Positions 563-15,851 of a DNA stretch of 37,654 nucleotides are shown here, piece by piece. Position 1 is the first letter of the stretch, and each line of letters starts with the position of its first letter. The notes below the pieces were generated by a model. It was not told the origin of the DNA, made no database searches, and saw nothing but the letters and a program-made list of their open reading frames with translations. The stretch is taken from the IMG/VR virus record IMGVR_UViG_3300014711_000004, positions 1-37,654 of that record; one strand, written 5' to 3'. A program made the translations under genes and the position numbers. The DNA is from a virus.

Positions 563-595
563 GAGACATCAGCAACGCAGTGAGGAGACACCGCC

Positions 596-847
596 ATGTA
601 CGTTACCTTCGAACACACCATCACGCGCGGCGACGACGAGTTCTACGTCGAGGTCGGCTACATCGCCGTGGGCCGTGACGTCGAGATTGACAGCGTCCAG
701 CTGGACGGTGCCGACTTCCCGACCACCCCCGCCGAAGACGCCGAAATCTTGGCCGCGTGCTTCGACCGCGTCGATGAAGACTGGTACGACGCACAGGCTG
801 CATACGGCGACTATCTGGCCGACCTGCGCGCCGAAGATCGCTACTGA
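596..847 (+). CDS. Hypothetical acidic phage protein
   Basis: 83 aa, very acidic (many Asp/Glu), preceded by GAGGAGACACCGCC. The N-terminus (MYVTFEHTITRGDDEFYVEV) looks like paired beta strands, and the C-terminal half is probably helical. I do not recognise a family. It is the first gene behind leader module 1, so it is probably expressed early with the genes to 1284. Small acidic proteins in this position are sometimes host-takeover or inhibitor proteins, but nothing here shows that. Confidence 0.7.
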   Translation: MYVTFEHTITRGDDEFYVEVGYIAVGRDVEIDSVQLDGADFPTTPAEDAEILAACFDRVDEDWYDAQAAYGDYLADLRAEDRY

Positions 848-1325: not shown

Positions 1326-1354
1326 GGGGCATCAGCAACGCAGAGGAGAGTTCA

Positions 1355-1720
1355 GTGTACGACGCAATCATCAACGTGGGCATGGTCAGCAGCGACGGCA
1401 GCAAGACCTTCGACATCGACGAGGTCTTCGCCGCCCTGCACGCCAACGGCATCATCGCTTACCCGACGTTCGCCACCGTCGTCGAGAGTGACAGCGAGCC
1501 GACCGTCGTGGTCCACGCGATCATCGCGGCCGACAGCGACGTGTACAACGCCGCCGTCGATCTGGAACAGGACTGCATCGCCGTGTGGGCCGGCCGCGCC
1601 CGCGAAGGTAGCCTGATCGGCCCGAACGCTAAGAAGTGGGGCCCGTTCAACCCGCGCTTTTTCTTCCTGCCGAGCGGGAAGCGCCTGTCTGATCTGATCG
1701 GTGAAGAGGAGGCCGCGTGA
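1355..1720 (+). CDS. Hypothetical phage protein
   Basis: 121 aa. The GTG at 1355 is chosen because it lies 6 nt after AGAGGAGAG; an in-frame TTG-type start at 1298 would fall inside the promoter. The sequence alternates strands and helices (YDAIINVGMVSSDGSKTFD, then DIDEVFAALHANGIIAYPTF) and ends with GPFNPRFFFLPSGKRLSDLI. The C-terminal part mentions no known catalytic motif. The stop overlaps the ATG of the next gene by one base. Function unknown; likely early expressed. Confidence 0.7.
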   Translation: MYDAIINVGMVSSDGSKTFDIDEVFAALHANGIIAYPTFATVVESDSEPTVVVHAIIAADSDVYNAAVDLEQDCIAVWAGRAREGSLIGPNAKKWGPFNPRFFFLPSGKRLSDLIGEEEAA

Positions 1721-2760: not shown

Positions 2761-2792
2761 AGGGGAAGCAACAACGCAGAGGAGAAACTGCA

Positions 2793-3317
2793 ATGCCCGA
2801 CACCGCACCGTGGGCCGTCACAATGGCCGACATCTACGCGCACCGCCCCTGCACCAGAGGGTGGCAGAAACTGCGGAAGTTCACCGGCCTTCACGCTGAT
2901 GACGCAACCACCCCCGTCACGCTGCTGACGATCCTTGAGAGTAACGGACTGGACGATGCGCTGTGGTGCCTGCGTGCCGTCAAAGGCCGCGACCGCGAAA
3001 TCCGGCTGTACGCAGTCTGGTGTGCGCGACAGGTGCAGCACATGATGACCGACCCGCGCTCCGTAGCCGCGCTCGACGTGGCAGAGCGTTATGCGAACGG
3101 CGAGGCTACCGAAGAGGAGTTGGTCGCCGCTGAGGTCGCCGCTCGGGCCGCTACGGACGCCGCTTGGGCCGCTCGGTCCGCCGCTTGGGCCGCCGCTCGG
3201 GCCGCTACGGACGCCGCTTGGGCCGCCGCTTGGACCGCTGGGGCCGCCGCTGGGGACGCCGCTGGGGACGCCGCTCGGGACGCACAGGAAGCTAAGTTCA
3301 AGGAGATGGTTGGATGA
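2793..3317 (+). CDS. Phage protein with Ala-rich pentapeptide-like C-terminal repeats
   Basis: 174 aa. Residues 1-110 form a conserved-looking, mostly helical domain (HRPCTRGWQKLRKFTG, then DDALWCLRAVKGR and REIRLYAVWCARQVQHMM). From about residue 110 the protein becomes repeats of A-A-x-A-A with W, T and D at fixed places (AATDAAWAA), probably one long amphipathic helix or coiled coil. The ribosome site is GCAGAGGAGAAACTGC. I recall proteins of this N-terminal type in other phages but know no function. The repeats are direct DNA repeats (3138-3226), so copy number may vary. Coupled to the next gene by ATGA. Confidence 0.75.
   Translation: MPDTAPWAVTMADIYAHRPCTRGWQKLRKFTGLHADDATTPVTLLTILESNGLDDALWCLRAVKGRDREIRLYAVWCARQVQHMMTDPRSVAALDVAERYANGEATEEELVAAEVAARAATDAAWAARSAAWAAARAATDAAWAAAWTAGAAAGDAAGDAARDAQEAKFKEMVG
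3138..3226 (+). repeat. Direct repeats encoding the Ala-rich helix
   Basis: A 35-bp segment beginning GCCGCTCGGGCC at 3138 recurs exactly at 3192, a period of 54 bp (18 codons). Shorter GCCGCT-GGG variants continue on both sides to about 3285. Codon periodicity is kept, so gain or loss of units would preserve the reading frame. Confidence 0.85.
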
Positions 3318-4943: not shown

Positions 4944-5581
4944 CCATTCGAACTGACATCATAACTACGACGGCGGCCCTGTTCGACGTACACCCGCGCG
5001 ATCTTATCCGCGACTTCCGCTTCGCGTTCCTGACGCGGGCCCGCTTCGCGATGTATCTGGCCCTGCGCCAGCGCGGGTGGACCTACGCCAAGATCGGGCA
5101 GGCCGCAGGCCGCGACCGCAAGAGCGTGGCGCACGGCGTCGCCCGCGCCGAATACATGGCCGAACGCGATCCGGACTTCGCAGCGAAGGTGGCCGAGCTG
5201 GCGAGCACGCTGGACGCCAAGAACACATTCTGGCGGCCGACTGTGGCGGACGTCTTCAAGTTCGTGTGCCACGCGGCGAGCGAAGACGCGCAGGCCGTGC
5301 TGACCGCCCGCACCTTCGACGTGTACAGCCGGATGCTGTGCTCTCTGGCCATGTGCGTGGCGCGGGAAGTCGGGCTGCCGAACCGCACCGTGGGCACGTT
5401 TTTCGGTATCTCGGGCACGGCGGCGCGCAGCGCCGCGCTCCGGTTCGAGGAGCTGTGGGGCGCGTCCGACACGGCGATGGACATCCTCAAGCGCGCCCGC
5501 GAAGAATTTTCGCAGCACAGGGTTGCAATCTCGGATTGCGCGTGCGATGGGGGTGAAGCAACAATGAGGAAAGCAGCATGA
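4940..5581 (+). CDS. DnaA domain IV-like DNA-binding protein
   Basis: 213 aa, ATG overlapping the previous stop. Residues about 8-75 follow the DnaA C-terminal (domain IV) pattern: LFDVHPRDLIRDFR, then TRARFAMYLALR, then IGQAAGRDRKSVAHG, where DnaA has (G)GRDHSTVxHA in the DnaA-box recognition helix. There is no AAA+ domain. The second half (EVGLPNRTVGTFFGISGTAA) contains another probable HTH. It could compete for host DnaA boxes or mark the phage origin; both are inference. The start at 4940 is preferred over 4889, which would lie well inside the previous gene. Confidence 0.75.
   Translation: MTIRTDIITTTAALFDVHPRDLIRDFRFAFLTRARFAMYLALRQRGWTYAKIGQAAGRDRKSVAHGVARAEYMAERDPDFAAKVAELASTLDAKNTFWRPTVADVFKFVCHAASEDAQAVLTARTFDVYSRMLCSLAMCVAREVGLPNRTVGTFFGISGTAARSAALRFEELWGASDTAMDILKRAREEFSQHRVAISDCACDGGEATMRKAA
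5523..5570 (+). promoter_or_regulatory. Leader-like module inside the end of the DnaA-like gene
   Basis: TTGCAATCTCGGATTGC has the same 13-nt paired spacing as modules 1 and 2, and is followed by AAGCAACAATGAGGA before the ATG at 5578. No good -10 is visible (GATGGG at 17 nt from TTGCAA), so it may be an operator or a decayed promoter within coding sequence. Confidence 0.35.
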
Positions 5582-8093: not shown

Positions 8094-8127
8094 GGCTTGC
8101 AATCTGGTGATTGCACGCCCATATAGG
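8083..8127 (+). promoter_or_regulatory. Leader module 4: TTGCA pair plus second inverted repeat
   Basis: TTGCAAATAGGGGCTTGCAA repeats the TTGCA pair at 14-nt spacing, as in module 3. With TTGCAA (8097-8102) as -35, CATATA at 17 nt or TATAGG at 19 nt would be the -10. A second inverted repeat, TGCAATC (8098-8104) and GATTGCA (8109-8115), overlaps the -35. A 47-nt leader with CAACAAC and a GAGGAGAAG ribosome site follows. Confidence 0.5.
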
Positions 8128-8174
8128 TTCTACCAACAACGGGGACAGCAACCCCCACAACGAGGAGAAGTCAC

Positions 8175-8483
8175 ATGGCATCTGTCGCCACCATCACCCC
8201 CATCTCGCCGGTCGACCGGCTGGGCGAGGTCAAGGCCGAAATCGCTCGGCTGACCGAAATCGCCAAGTTCTTGGAAGCCGAAATCGCTATCGCCGGTGCC
8301 GGCGTGTACGAAGGCGACGCCTTCCGCGCCGCCGTCTCGGTCGTCGCCGACACCAAGACGCTCGATGCCAAGGCCGCCGAAACCAAGCTGCGCTCGATGG
8401 GCGTGGACGGCCGCTGGTTCAGCAAGAACATGAAGACCCGTCGCGGCTACACCAGCGTCCGCGTCACTGAGCGGAAGGCCTGA
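8175..8483 (+). CDS. Hypothetical replication-cassette protein
   Basis: 102 aa with ribosome site GAGGAGAAGTCAC, first gene behind leader module 4. Residues 14-45 form a probable helix (RLGEVKAEIARLTEIAKFLE). The second half, VDGRWFSKNMKTRRGYTSVR, is strand-like and basic. It might bind DNA in the replication cassette, but I recognise no family. An identical architecture of helix plus basic tail occurs in several small phage proteins. Confidence 0.7.
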   Translation: MASVATITPISPVDRLGEVKAEIARLTEIAKFLEAEIAIAGAGVYEGDAFRAAVSVVADTKTLDAKAAETKLRSMGVDGRWFSKNMKTRRGYTSVRVTERKA

Positions 8484-11137: not shown

Positions 11138-11391
11138 GCGGCGCAGGACACAACAGCGGAGCCGATGATCGGCTCCGCCTCCTGATCGAGCGCGTCGAGC
11201 GCCTTGAGGAAGAGAAAAAGGCCATCGCGGATGACGTCAAGGACGTCTTCGCGGAAGCCAAGGCGGTCGGCTACGACGTCAAGACCATGCGGAAGATCAT
11301 TGCGCTGCGGAAGATGAAGCCGGACGACCGGCGGGAGCAGCAGATGATCCTCGAGACGTACGCGAATGCTCTTGGCCTCGATCTGATTTGA
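11134..11391 (+). CDS. gapR-like: GapR-family nucleoid protein (DUF2312)
   Basis: 85 aa from a GTG overlapping the DUF2815 stop. The sequence GAGHNSGADDRLRLLIERVE, RLEEEKKAIADDVKDVFAEA, KTMRKIIALRKM and EQQMILETYANALGLDL covers the whole DUF2312/GapR family. In Caulobacter, GapR forms a coiled-coil clamp on overtwisted DNA ahead of replication and aids topoisomerases. Full length for the family, with the conserved Lys/Arg in the second helix. Its place between the ssDNA-binding protein and the polymerase suggests it handles supercoiling ahead of the phage fork, or disturbs host GapR. Points to an alphaproteobacterial host. Confidence 0.88.
   Translation: MSGAGHNSGADDRLRLLIERVERLEEEKKAIADDVKDVFAEAKAVGYDVKTMRKIIALRKMKPDDRREQQMILETYANALGLDLI
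11156..11178. repeat. 23-bp near-perfect palindrome in the gapR-like gene
   Basis: GCGGAGCCGAT (11156-11166), one central G, then ATCGGCTCCGC (11168-11178) are exact inverse complements. It spans codons 8-15 (SGADDRLR) of the GapR-like gene. It could fold in mRNA near the start or be a protein-binding site. Confidence 0.8.
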
Positions 11392-11405
11392 GGCTATAGG
11401 CAACG

Positions 11406-11450
11406 GGATAGGGCGGCGGAAGTTGGGGCAACAGGCCCGCCGCCCTATCC
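11406..11450 (+). terminator. Strong hairpin after the gapR-like gene (probable terminator)
   Basis: GGATAGGGCGGCGG (11406-11419) pairs perfectly with CCGCCGCCCTATCC (11437-11450). The 17-nt loop can form an inner GTTG-GGG-CAAC stem. The following tract is TCCTCTTC, a poor U-run, so termination may be partial or the hairpin may act as an attenuator or mRNA processing site. Confidence 0.6.
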
Positions 11451-11533
11451 TCCTCTTCGGCGAGCCGCGCGCTGCGTTGCGGTTCTCCTCCCGCGTTGCT
11501 GATCTGCGGCGCGCGGCTCACCGAAGCGGAGGA
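11448..11533 (+). promoter_or_regulatory. Long inverted repeat covering the polymerase ribosome site
   Basis: The left arm 11448-11472 and right arm 11509-11533 pair at 23 of 25 positions: core CTTCGGcGAGCCGCGCGC with GCGCGCGGCTCaCCGAAG, and outer TCCTCC with GGAGGA. The outer pairs include the polymerase Shine-Dalgarno GGAGGA (11528-11533). The 36-nt loop holds GTTCTCCTCC (11482-11491), an exact complement of GGAGGAGAAC (11528-11537), giving an alternative or pseudoknot pairing that also hides the ribosome site. A translational operator for the polymerase is likely. Confidence 0.65.
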
Positions 11534-11540
11534 GAACGCT

Positions 11541-13502
11541 GTGAACACCCTGTTCCTTGATACCGAGACCTTCTCGGCCATACCCATCACGCATGGCGCG
11601 CACCGCTACGCCGAAGAGGCGGAAGTGATGCTCGTGCCGTATGCGTGGAACGACGAGCCGGTCGAGGTGTGGGATACTCAAGATCGGCCGCACTGGCGCA
11701 GCGAGCTGCAGCAGATGGTCGACCACGCCGACCGCGTCGTTATCCACAACAGCAACTTCGACCGCACCGTGCTGGCGCGCCACGCCGTCGTGATCCCCAT
11801 CGACAAGATCGACGACACGATGGTCATGGCGCTGATGCACAGCCTGCCGGCGGGCTTGGGCGCGCTGGGCGAGGCGACGGGCATCCCGCAGGACAAGGCG
11901 AAGGACAAGGACGGCAAGCGGCTGATCCACCTGTTCACGAAGCCGCTGCCGAAGAACCGCAAGCTGACCCGCGCCACCCGCGAGACGCACCCCGAGGATT
12001 GGCAGAAGTTCATCGGCTACGCCGCATCGGACATCGAGGCCATGCGCTACCTGTACAAGCGCCTGCCGCGCTGGAACTACACCGACGCCGAGCGGCAGCT
12101 GTGGGCCCTCGATCAGCGGATGAACGACCGAGGCATAGCGGTAGACAAGGCGCTGGCCGCTGCGGCTATCCGCGCCTTCGACCGCGCCGTGGCCGAGTTG
12201 GCGCGCCGCATCACTGCGCTGACCGAGGGCAAGGTGACATCAGCCACGCAGCGGCAGAAGCTGATCGACTATCTGCGCGATGACTGCGGCTTCCCCGTCG
12301 CTGATCTGACGAAGGGCACGCTGGACGCGCTGCTCAAGGGCGACTTGCCGCCGAAGGTGCGCGAGCTGCTGGAAATCCGCCGGCAGGCCGCCGCTACATC
12401 GCCCGCCAAGTACGGCGTGCTGCTCGACGCCGCGAACAGCGACGGCCGCCTGCGCGGCATCATTCAGTTCTGCGGTGCCGGTCGCACCGGACGCGACGCC
12501 GGACGCATCTTTCAGCCCCAGAACCTTCCGCGCCCCAGCATGAGCGGCGCGCAGATCGACGCGGGCATCGACGCGATGCTGCACGACTGCGAGGACTTGG
12601 TCTTCGACAACGTCAGCGAGCTGTGCTCAAGCGCCGTACGCAGCGCGCTGGTGGCTGCGCCGGGCAAGAAACTGGTGATCGCCGACCTTTCGAACATCGA
12701 AGGCCGCGTGGCCGCGTGGCTGGCCAACGAGGAGTGGAAGCTGCAGGCCTTCCGCGACTTCGACGCGGGGACCGGCCATGACTTGTACGTGCTCGCGTAC
12801 GCCCGCTCGTTCAACATCACCCCCGAAGAGGTCATCGCCAACAAGAAACACGGCGACGGCATGATGCGCCAGATCGGCAAGGTGCAGGAGCTGGCGCTGC
12901 AGTACCAAGGTGGCGCTGGCGCGTTCAACGCGATGGCCGCTGCTTATGGCGTCGTGCTGCCCGACGAACAGGTAGAAGAGATTGTCCGCGCGTGGCGGCG
13001 GGCGCAGCCCCGCATTCGTAACTTCTGGTACGATCTGGAAGCGGCCGTGCGCGCCTCGATCCGCGAGCCGGGCGCGATCCACGAAGTGGGGCCGCTGCGG
13101 ATGGCCGTCAACGCCGAGGGCTGGCTGCGGATCAAGCTGCCGAGCGGACGCTACCTGTCCTACCCAAACGCCTACATCGACGAGACTGGCAGCATCTGGT
13201 ACTCCGGCACGAACCAGTACACGAAGCAGTGGGGCTCGATCCAGAGCTATGGCGGCAAGTTCTTCGAGAACATCGTGCAGGCCGTGGCGCGCGACGTGTT
13301 CATGGATGGCGTGCGCCGCGCTGAGGCCGCAGGGTATCCGGTCTGCATTCGTGTACACGACGAGCTTGTATGCGAAACGCCGGATACCGATGACTTCACC
13401 CACGAGGGGCTGGCGCGGCTTATGGCGACCAACCCTTCGTGGTCTCTCGGATTGCCGCTGGCAGCGGCGGGCTTCACGACGTACCGATACAAAAAGGACT
13501 GA
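11541..13502 (+). CDS. polA-like: Family A DNA polymerase with 3'-5' exonuclease
   Basis: 653 aa. The GTG at 11541 is chosen because GGAGGAGAA ends 4-5 nt upstream and the protein then begins MNTLFLDTETFS, with exonuclease motif I D7-x-E9. Exo II is HNSNFDRTVL and exo III YAASDIEAMRYL. Polymerase motifs: A, D382-LSNIEGR (usual form DYSQIELR); B, R443-QIGK447 followed by ELALQYQGG; C, VHDE (605-608). All catalytic residues are present, so it should be the replicative polymerase with proofreading; no 5' nuclease domain. The length suits phage family A enzymes. Expression may be controlled by the hairpin at 11448-11533. Confidence 0.93.
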   Translation: MNTLFLDTETFSAIPITHGAHRYAEEAEVMLVPYAWNDEPVEVWDTQDRPHWRSELQQMVDHADRVVIHNSNFDRTVLARHAVVIPIDKIDDTMVMALMHSLPAGLGALGEATGIPQDKAKDKDGKRLIHLFTKPLPKNRKLTRATRETHPEDWQKFIGYAASDIEAMRYLYKRLPRWNYTDAERQLWALDQRMNDRGIAVDKALAAAAIRAFDRAVAELARRITALTEGKVTSATQRQKLIDYLRDDCGFPVADLTKGTLDALLKGDLPPKVRELLEIRRQAAATSPAKYGVLLDAANSDGRLRGIIQFCGAGRTGRDAGRIFQPQNLPRPSMSGAQIDAGIDAMLHDCEDLVFDNVSELCSSAVRSALVAAPGKKLVIADLSNIEGRVAAWLANEEWKLQAFRDFDAGTGHDLYVLAYARSFNITPEEVIANKKHGDGMMRQIGKVQELALQYQGGAGAFNAMAAAYGVVLPDEQVEEIVRAWRRAQPRIRNFWYDLEAAVRASIREPGAIHEVGPLRMAVNAEGWLRIKLPSGRYLSYPNAYIDETGSIWYSGTNQYTKQWGSIQSYGGKFFENIVQAVARDVFMDGVRRAEAAGYPVCIRVHDELVCETPDTDDFTHEGLARLMATNPSWSLGLPLAAAGFTTYRYKKD

Positions 13503-14160: not shown

Positions 14161-14492
14161 CGCCAGCGGGCAAGCTGCAGGATCGCCTGAAAAAGCGGGT
14201 GCAGGAAAGCGGGGGCCAGTACCGCAAGGTGCGGTGGGAGGGGCGGCGCGGCTGCCCCGACTGCTTCATCTGGTGGAGCTGGCCCCGCGCCGCTTTTGTT
14301 GAGGTGAAGGCGGGCGATGACAAGTTCAGCACGCTGCAGGATCGCGAGGTGCGCCGCATGGCTGCGGCGGATATTCCCGTATTCACCGCACGCACTGTGG
14401 AGGATGTCGACCGAATTGTCGAAATCGTGAGAAAGGGCTTGCAACCTGACGTTGCGTCTGGCAGTGATGCGGCAGCAACGACGGAGGATTGA
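14157..14492 (+). CDS. VRR-NUC nuclease
   Basis: 111 aa, GTG start overlapping the previous stop, behind GGGAGGA. Matches the VRR-NUC form of PD-(D/E)XK: helix LQDRLKKRVQESGGQY, KVRWEGRRGCPDC with D35, then FVEVKAG with E49-x-K51, and LQDREVRRM with Q61. These enzymes cleave branched DNA (flaps, Holliday junctions) and usually sit next to the SNF2 helicase in this replication module, as here. The C-terminal tail (DVASGSDAAATTED) is encoded over a TTGCA-pair element, and its low complexity may reflect that. Confidence 0.88.
   Translation: MTPAGKLQDRLKKRVQESGGQYRKVRWEGRRGCPDCFIWWSWPRAAFVEVKAGDDKFSTLQDREVRRMAAADIPVFTARTVEDVDRIVEIVRKGLQPDVASGSDAAATTED
14439..14487 (+). promoter_or_regulatory. 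Leader-like module at the VRR-NUC/helicase junction
   Basis: TTGCAACCTGACGTTGCG (14439 on) has the TTGCA pair 13 nt apart, as in modules 1, 2 and 5523. It is followed by GCAGCAACGACGGAGGA, the GCAAC element and ribosome site of the helicase GTG at 14493. CAGTGA at 17 nt from TTGCAA is a weak -10. It lies wholly within coding sequence. Confidence 0.4.
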
Positions 14493-15851
14493 GTGACCCG
14501 CACGTTCGTGCCCCACGACTACCAGCGCGAGGCGCTGGCGCACATCTACGCGACGCCTCGCTGCGCGCTGTGGATGCCGATGGGCGGGGGCAAGACCGTC
14601 ACCACGCTGACCGCGCTGGACAACCTGTCGCTGGTCGAGGAGGTGTTCCCCGTACTGATCCTCGCGCCGCTGCGCGTCGCCAAGAGCACGTGGCCGGACG
14701 AAGTCGCCAAGTGGGCGCACCTGCGGCACCTGCGCGTCAGCGTCATCGCTGGCACTCCGAAGCAGCGCGAGGCCGCCCTGCGCGTCGAGGCGGACATCTA
14801 CACAACCAACTACGACCAGCTCAGCTGGCTGTGCGAGCAGGTTGGCGACGGCTGGCCGTTCAAGACTGTGGTGGCCGACGAGTTCACGCGGTTGAAGTCG
14901 TTCCGGCTGCGGCAAGGCGGCTCACGCGCCCGCGCGCTGGGTAAGGTGGCCCACACCCACGTCAATCGCTTCATCGGGCTGACCGGCACGCCGGCGGCCA
15001 ATGGCGTGAAGGACTTGTGGGGCCAGACTTGGTTCCTCGACCAAGGGGCGCGGCTTGGGCGGACGTTCAGCGCATTCGAGCAGCGGTGGTTCCGCAAGGG
15101 GTACGACGGCTACAGCCTCGTGCCGTTCGACCACACGCAAGAGGAAGTGCAAGAGCGGCTGAAAGACATCTGCCTCACCGTGCGCGGCCTGCCGGTCGAC
15201 GAGCCGATGACCACGCCCATCTACGTCGATCTGCCGCCGACGGCGCGCAAGGCCTATGACGAGATGGAGCAGGAGATGTTCACCGTCATCGCAGAGGAAG
15301 GCGTGGAGGCGGCGAACGCGGCTGTCCGGACGCAGAAGTGCCTGCAGCTGGCGAATGGCGCGATATACACCGAAGATGGGGGATGGGAGGATGTTCACGC
15401 GGCGAAGCTGGATGCGCTTGACAGCATCCTTGAGGAAGCCAACGGTGCGCCAGTGCTGGTGGCCTACAACTTCAAGCACGATCTTGAGCGGCTACGGGCT
15501 CGTTTCCCTAAGGCTCGGGTGCTGGACACTGACCCTAATACGATCCGCGAGTGGAACGCCGGACGGGTTCCGCTCCTACTCGCTCACCCTGCATCGGCAG
15601 GCCACGGGCTGAACCTCGCCGACGGAGGCAACATCCTCGCCTTCTTCGGGGTTAACTGGAACCTCGAAGAGCACCAGCAGATCATCGAGCGAATTGGCCC
15701 GATGCGGCAGAAGCAGGCAGGCTACGACCGGCCGGTGCTGGTGTATCTGATCCTCGCGCGCAACACCGTGGACGACATGGTGATGGAGCGCCTGCTGTCG
15801 AAGCGCAGCGTACAAGACATTCTTCTCGAAGCTATGGAGCGCAAGAAATGA
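14493..15851 (+). CDS. SNF2/superfamily 2 helicase
   Basis: 452 aa, GTG directly after the VRR-NUC stop. SF2 motifs: Q-like YQREAL, Walker A MPMGGGKT (K34), DEFT as motif II (D129-E130, in place of DEAH), LTGTP (163-167), and SAGHGLNLADGG near motif V. The final motif reads IERIGPMRQKQ, a variant of the usual QxxERxHRxGQ of SNF2 helicases. It is a short, phage-type SNF2 protein that probably translocates on double-stranded DNA with the VRR-NUC nuclease to resolve or repair fork structures. Overlaps the next gene by ATGA. Confidence 0.88.
   Translation: MTRTFVPHDYQREALAHIYATPRCALWMPMGGGKTVTTLTALDNLSLVEEVFPVLILAPLRVAKSTWPDEVAKWAHLRHLRVSVIAGTPKQREAALRVEADIYTTNYDQLSWLCEQVGDGWPFKTVVADEFTRLKSFRLRQGGSRARALGKVAHTHVNRFIGLTGTPAANGVKDLWGQTWFLDQGARLGRTFSAFEQRWFRKGYDGYSLVPFDHTQEEVQERLKDICLTVRGLPVDEPMTTPIYVDLPPTARKAYDEMEQEMFTVIAEEGVEAANAAVRTQKCLQLANGAIYTEDGGWEDVHAAKLDALDSILEEANGAPVLVAYNFKHDLERLRARFPKARVLDTDPNTIREWNAGRVPLLLAHPASAGHGLNLADGGNILAFFGVNWNLEEHQQIIERIGPMRQKQAGYDRPVLVYLILARNTVDDMVMERLLSKRSVQDILLEAMERKK

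Follow-up and report, generated by a model that had tools for sequence, protein, structure and literature searches.

Upstream of the family A DNA polymerase gene of the window (the whole 37,654-nt stretch of IMG/VR virus record IMGVR_UViG_3300014711_000004), the leader RNA is predicted to fold into two adjoining hairpins, and the loop of the second reads, in reverse complement, as a repeated start-associated leader, AUCAGCAAC-n-AGGAG-n-AUG. Because this loop is complementary to the leaders of other genes and both have changed together in distant relatives, the element is probably an antisense switch for a set of viral genes rather than a private control of the polymerase. Specifically, we propose, as a reading that the sequences make fairly probable, that the polymerase leader is a phage-encoded antisense RNA that would block ribosome binding both on the mRNAs of a group of phage genes and on the transcript that carries it.

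Architecture of the polymerase leader

The initial annotation had pointed to a 14-bp hairpin, a long inverted repeat that takes the Shine-Dalgarno (SD) sequence into its outer pairs, and a 10-nt loop complement of the ribosome site, and all three are borne out (Table 1). Hairpin 1 is paired throughout, the arms of hairpin 2 are complementary at 25 of 28 positions, with GGAGGA of the polymerase SD among the outer pairs, and loop positions 11482-11491 are complementary to 11528-11537 at 10 of 10. In line with this architecture, the leader from 11392 to 11560 folds with -95.6 kcal/mol, compared with -72.9 +/- 4.0 kcal/mol for dinucleotide shuffles (z = -5.65; 0/200 as low).

Directly before hairpin 1, most relatives carry a TTGG(C)-n17-TATA pair, which predicts a transcript beginning at the first G of hairpin 1; this promoter is put forward as a prediction, because it is missing from a strict consensus promoter scan. 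Upstream of the polymerase lie an exonuclease-like DUF2800 gene, an Enc34-type ssDNA-binding gene and a GapR-like gene. Near the start of the GapR-like gene, the palindrome GGAGCCGATGATCGGCTCC at window 11156-11178 may form a further hairpin over the start region.

Table 1. Leader features and start-associated leaders in the window
Feature	Positions	Strand	Remarks
Start-associated leader ATCAGCAACGCAGTGAGGAG	568..598	+	before ORF at 596; predicted trans target
Start-associated leader ATCAGCAACGCAGAGGAG	1331..1357	+	before GTG 1355; predicted trans target
Variant leader GCAACAACGCAGAGGAG	2768..2795	+	before ATG 2793; TTGCAA promoter-like element at 2718
Degenerate leader GCAACAATGAGGAA	5558..5580	+	before ATG 5578; promoter-like element at 5523
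Degenerate leader ACCAACAAC...	8132..8177	+	before ATG 8175; promoter-like element at 8097; canonical leader here in relatives
Predicted leader promoter	11372..11400	+	TTGGCC, 17-nt spacer, TATAGG; predicted +1 is the first G of hairpin 1
Hairpin 1	arms 11406-11419 / 11437-11450	+	14/14 paired; probable 5' end of leader RNA
Hairpin 2	arms 11448-11475 / 11506-11533	+	25/28 complementary; element span 11448-11540
Hairpin 2 5' arm	11448..11475	+	outer part covarying; inner part GGCGAGCCGCGCGC conserved, with C.A mismatch
Anti-SD loop part GUUCUCCUCC	11482..11491	+	complement of polymerase SD and of SD regions of other leaders (duplex tests)
Anti-leader loop part GCGUUGCUGAU	11493..11503	+	predicted mostly single-stranded; exact complement of AUCAGCAACGC in other leaders
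Hairpin 2 3' arm	11506..11533	+	SD at its end
Polymerase SD region GGAGGAGAAC	11528..11537	+	pairs either within outer stem or with loop (cis target)
Family A DNA polymerase	11541..13502	+	GTG start at 11541; Pfam PF00476
Variant leader GCAGCAACGACGGAGG	14472..14495	+	before GTG 14493 (SNF2-type helicase); promoter-like element at 14439

Hairpin 2 belongs to a covarying RNA element

DNA-pattern scans place hairpin 2 in an RNA element present in dozens of IMG/VR phage contigs, and polymerase relatives at ~60% identity have the same hairpin. Under the covariance model, built from 25 sequences that include the window, the window element reaches 78.9 bits (E 5.5e-21). Among 25 distinct sequences, 10 pairs are changed on both sides, with 41 such cells, and 0 of 500 shuffles are as high on either measure; the signal is lost when the partners are slid against each other, and two-sided changes also occur in the loop-to-AUG pairing. 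The 13 invariant inner-stem pairs are partly selected, because most members were retrieved by an inner-stem pattern; in L400-L408, which were retrieved by polymerase protein alone, the inner stems are altered, still paired and still match the model. Folding and covariation across relatives, proposed as a check in the initial annotation, come out in favour of a structured, SD-sequestering leader whose loop is complementary to the ribosome site and whose pairs change together.

Hairpin 1 is kept in position and unrelated in sequence, an independent upstream hairpin being found in 36 of 37 distinct relatives. In 35 of the 37, this hairpin runs into or reaches the 5' arm of hairpin 2; the overlap is 1-2 nt in 34 of them and 4 nt in one, so the slight overlap of the two hairpins, noticed earlier in the window, is itself conserved. 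Within hairpin 2, the lone internal stem mismatch, window 11461 opposite 11520 (A1 columns 16 and 83), is C.A or U.U in all aligned relatives, which hints at a recognised non-canonical pair.

Searches at greater distance delimit the element. With the consensus, blastn against phage isolates and plasmids gave no homolog, and by model search the element is absent from polymerase leaders at 47-52% identity (L013-L066). A different strong hairpin precedes the polymerase in L017, L049 and L055 (about 2940-2990), with the common loop GAGGTGCCTCTCAG, the complement of which was not found in other leaders of these fetched loci. Caulobacter phage RW, the closest isolate by DNA, was set aside, only a short gap preceding its polymerase. 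The polymerase genes of L395 (Caulobacter phage RW), L043 and L048 are ~0.9-1 kb longer than that of the window (2.9 kb vs 1.96 kb), possibly through an insertion such as an intein. Two further candidates were rejected: window 23132, which shares arm sequence, is inside a long ORF with no hairpin partner in view, and nearly all extra matches from a GTTGCTGAT-n-ATCAGCRTG search without the stem look like chance or coding repeats.

The element is not specific for the polymerase gene

The element stands in 50 distinct downstream contexts, in which the next gene is the polymerase (18), a small gene with an IP[QE]IR motif (24), a ETRYKGYRFRSRLEAR gene (6) or another gene (2), and it is therefore not specific for the polymerase. 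The translational operator of T4 gene 43 is a hairpin over the SD of the phage DNA polymerase gene, and the window hairpin resembles it in covering the SD of such a gene. Unlike that operator, the element also precedes non-polymerase genes, another gene being next in most contexts, and its loop is complementary to the leaders of other genes, which it follows through evolution. Consequently, the operator suggested in the initial annotation stands as a structured, SD-hiding leader and falls as a T4-like operator bound by the polymerase: the stem holds the SD before the polymerase in the window, yet the polymerase is next in only 18 of the 50 contexts, and we regard translational control by bound polymerase as having next to no chance of being correct. 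In L453-L454 (G036), the gene that follows the hairpin is not the polymerase, which begins ~800 nt further downstream with GAGGACACCTGTG, a match to the loop.

Control by a ligand, also suggested earlier, was considered as a riboswitch and is without positive evidence for a small molecule. Rfam 15 gave no family at gathering score, and its permissive matches are weak hairpins, mostly microRNA models, with no C4 family among them.

The loop is antisense to start-associated leaders in one orientation

The largely unpaired part of the loop, GCGTTGCTGAT, has two further exact copies in the window on the opposite strand; these read ATCAGCAACGC, and each lies immediately 5' of an SD, one belonging to the gene at 596 and the other to that at 1355. 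This match between the loop and the starts of other genes, absent from the initial annotation, is the element's principal feature. Besides these two exact leaders, the window contains four degenerate ones (Table 1), among them that of the ATG 8175 gene, which encodes 102 aa and lies upstream of the replication genes leading to the polymerase. Across relatives, a genome may have as many as nine other genes preceded by leaders of the form ATCAGCAAC-n-AGGAG-n-AUG, oriented like the hairpin. Counted over 33 genomes, there are 91 sense copies and 33 antisense copies, the latter all in the hairpin, with 2 antisense copies elsewhere; that is, an SD-containing repeat occurs in one orientation at many starts and has a single antisense copy at another place.

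With most leaders beginning 35-36 nt downstream of a TTGCAA promoter element, the mRNA probably begins with the leader, the predicted start at these target promoters being the A of ATCAGCAAC. Other leaders are intercistronic and without a promoter, and in G034 a TTGAC-type promoter precedes an unchanged leader. The -35 region of this recurrent phage promoter consists of TTGCAA-n-(A)TTGCA inverted repeats (window 2718, 5523, 8097 and 14439, and relatives), which likely serve a phage regulator as its operator.

Loop and leaders change together across genomes

In addition to the natural pair GUUGCUGAU/AUCAGCAAC, relatives contain loop/leader pairs in which both partners are altered: GUUGUUGAU/AUCAACAAC, GUUGCUGAC/GUCAGCAAC, GGUUGUCCC/GGGACAACC and GUUGUUGGUAC/GUACCAACAA. 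In G031 (L357), which has the loop GUUGUUGAU, the leaders are ATCAACAAC in 5/5 cases vs 10/125 in other genomes; in G019 (L081), with the loop GUUGCUGAC, the leaders are GTCAGCAAC, with G in 6/6 vs 7/124 elsewhere. The loop of G035 (L405), GGUUGUCCCA, is accompanied by four GGGACAACC leaders and a cis copy, TTGGGACAACCTATG; that of G033 (L400), GUUGUUGGUACC (including GUUGUUGGUAC), by GTACCAACAA, the single promoter-linked leader in its 4.3-kb contig; and that of G036 (L408), GGUGUCCUCCC...GUUGCUGGU, by GAGGACACC start regions, the polymerase's own among them.

The mean loop-leader duplex energy is -29.9 kcal/mol (138 leaders, 31 genomes); shuffling the loops raises it to -13.7, and taking their reverse complements to -8.4. 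Own loops give -925 vs -877 (sd 8) when loops are permuted between genomes (0/5000), with selected leaders and a permutation that ignores phylogeny. Without pre-selection of leaders, perfect 8-nt complements of the own loop occur in 5-9 start regions of most long-contig genomes, where the remainder of the genome predicts 0.3-2.3, and in fewer in short contigs. For the seven divergent loop types, the own-genome 8-mer sum is 41 vs 22.6 permuted (13/5040, ignoring phylogeny). Duplex energy over all start regions gives a weak signal (44/5040, again with a permutation that ignores phylogeny), because GC-rich false starts dominate the best energies, and exact 8-mer counts are more telling.

The match between loops and leaders is incomplete. 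On the leaders of G019, 30/30 other loops beat its own loop by energy; ten ATCAACAAC-type leaders occur in genomes with a non-matching loop; and only two of the six window leaders match the loop core exactly.

Complementarity to the targets is kept through compensating change, a pattern that an inverted DNA motif would also produce. The main alternative to RNA pairing is accordingly a DNA-binding protein that reads an inverted copy of its site. Such a phage protein would recognise one non-palindromic sequence both at promoters and within the hairpin DNA, where the inverted repeat may be an operator or a replication-origin cruciform. It would have to do so, however, where the sequence persists without a promoter or with another promoter class, next to the SD (which in G035 the sequence contains), in an orientation fixed in three places, with a cis copy at the AUG and an added anti-SD stretch in the loop. 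The fixed distance of 35-36 nt between most leaders and the TTGCAA promoter element and the nearly invariant inner stem of pattern-retrieved members do fit a protein site, and joint change of one protein's sites would look alike. Wobble-compatible variation, as a test of RNA against DNA, offers too few variants and has a mixed outcome. On balance, we judge recognition at the DNA level improbable, at roughly one chance in ten.

A phage or host RNA-binding protein might instead bind the start-associated leader, with the hairpin loop competing with it or masking it. The leaders exceed in length and conservation what an SD requires, as noted for the start-associated sequences (SAS) of mycobacteriophages (PMC3203893); such a protein alone does not explain an antisense loop copy that changes with the leaders, and we give this explanation very little credence.

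Pairing of the loop in cis

Just past the stem, the SD/AUG region offers the loop a complement in cis. The pair is GUUCUCCUCC/GGAGGAGAAC in the window and GGUUGUCCCA/UGGGACAACC in L403-L407; in L081 it is GUUGCUGACA/UGUCAGCAAC and lies over the AUG, and the main group has UGCUGAUAAC/GUUAUCAGCA and UGCUGAUAC/GUAUCAGCA. This pairing is poorly kept in L102, L110, L116 and L147. Because the closed stem keeps the loop from the AUG, as judged from its geometry, pairing in cis would require either that the outer stem open or that another molecule take part.

Proposed mechanism

Comparison across genomes supports the fold and the leaders, the single direction in which the leaders run, and the parallel change between them and the loop. 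From here on we infer pairing in vivo, repression rather than activation, its timing, the transcription start and promoter, and any RNA processing. In the antisense RNA mechanism that we propose, a transcript from hairpin 1, or read-through from upstream, would fold into the two adjoining hairpins. The small apical stem-loop atop hairpin 2 would expose the anti-SD CUCC, with unpaired UUGCUGAU beside it, and these two stretches would pair with the AUCAGCAAC-n-AGGAG-n-AUG leaders of several phage genes. The same loop may pair with the SD/AUG just downstream on its own transcript, and ribosome entry would be blocked. Expression of the replication-gene leader would then lower a set of phage mRNAs together with the replication transcript itself, as feedback or as a timing switch. 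That the leader motif stays with a different promoter class and without a promoter, and that the hairpin is kept before unrelated genes, would argue for such an RNA.

The same pairing could also work with the opposite logic, as a toehold-like switch: early leader-bearing mRNAs would capture the loop from its cis partner and open the hairpin, restricting polymerase synthesis to times at which these mRNAs are abundant. The stem sequesters the SD in most members, the loop has complements both in cis and in trans, and in most relatives a co-directional start-associated promoter precedes the hairpin by ~3.4 kb, all of which would suit activation. However, the GC-rich stem does not come apart through leader-loop pairing alone, the hairpin is retained in front of unrelated genes, and the anti-SD stretch in the loop suits a repressor of the targets. 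We therefore consider activation unlikely, although it deserves some weight.

Small structured antisense RNAs from a phage operon leader that pair downstream on the same transcript are known from P1 (C4) and P4 (CI), C4 pairing over a ribosome-binding site, and each is known to act on one leader. To our knowledge, they are the nearest experimentally studied antisense RNAs. The polymerase leader shares with them a leader-encoded RNA complementary to the downstream ribosome site of the same transcript, as seen in the window cis pair and in the loop/AUG complements of relatives; it differs in that the complement recurs before several unlinked genes.

An extension of the antisense mechanism, which we hold tentatively and with less than even confidence, is a phage-wide RNA regulon, in which one replication-leader hairpin would silence in trans all genes with a matching leader, loop and leaders would drift as a private code, and the same layout would have arisen separately in Cluster K mycobacteriophages, where it would explain SAS. 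Phage gene timing is thought to be mainly protein-based, through repressors, sigma factors and antiterminators; the sequences described here point to one RNA hairpin that would address a whole set of phage mRNAs via their ribosome sites. At least four natural variants of the loop/leader code are available, which are swappable and testable.

A parallel in Cluster K mycobacteriophages

According to Pope 2011 (PMC3203893), Cluster K SAS are short SD-containing repeats that share one orientation and precede many non-structural genes by a few nt; K1 genomes carry a single SAS copy in the opposite orientation, noted there without explanation. About half of the SAS are preceded by the inverted-repeat ESAS, now read as holding a promoter (PMC3203893; Adephagia 2024, PMC11373665). 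Later papers still call the role of SAS unclear (PMC11373665, PMC12699233), and an antisense role is not among the proposals in the available text of PMC3203893 and PMC11373665. The antisense mechanism thus offers a checkable hypothesis for these sequences, unexplained since 2011.

The two systems are alike in having one-orientation SD-containing leaders at many starts and one reversed copy, which lies there in K1 genomes and here in the hairpin loop. They differ in sequence, the SAS being a 13-bp GGGATAGGAGCCC before start codons and the leaders described here ATCAGCAAC-n-AGGAG and variants, with no detectable relation between the two. In Anaya, CrimD, Niklas and Amelie, the reversed SAS copy is in a hairpin loop in a non-coding gap, a parallel that we regard as a lead, not proof. 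In Anaya (JF704106), the antisense SAS is at L382:29871-29883, about 59870, within a gap at about 59,830-59,900, and L384, L388 and L391 are alike. These K1-type SAS hairpins are GC-rich, lie near the right end and have stems that vary from phage to phage; Hammy (L383) has a drifted loop and an unchanged SAS.
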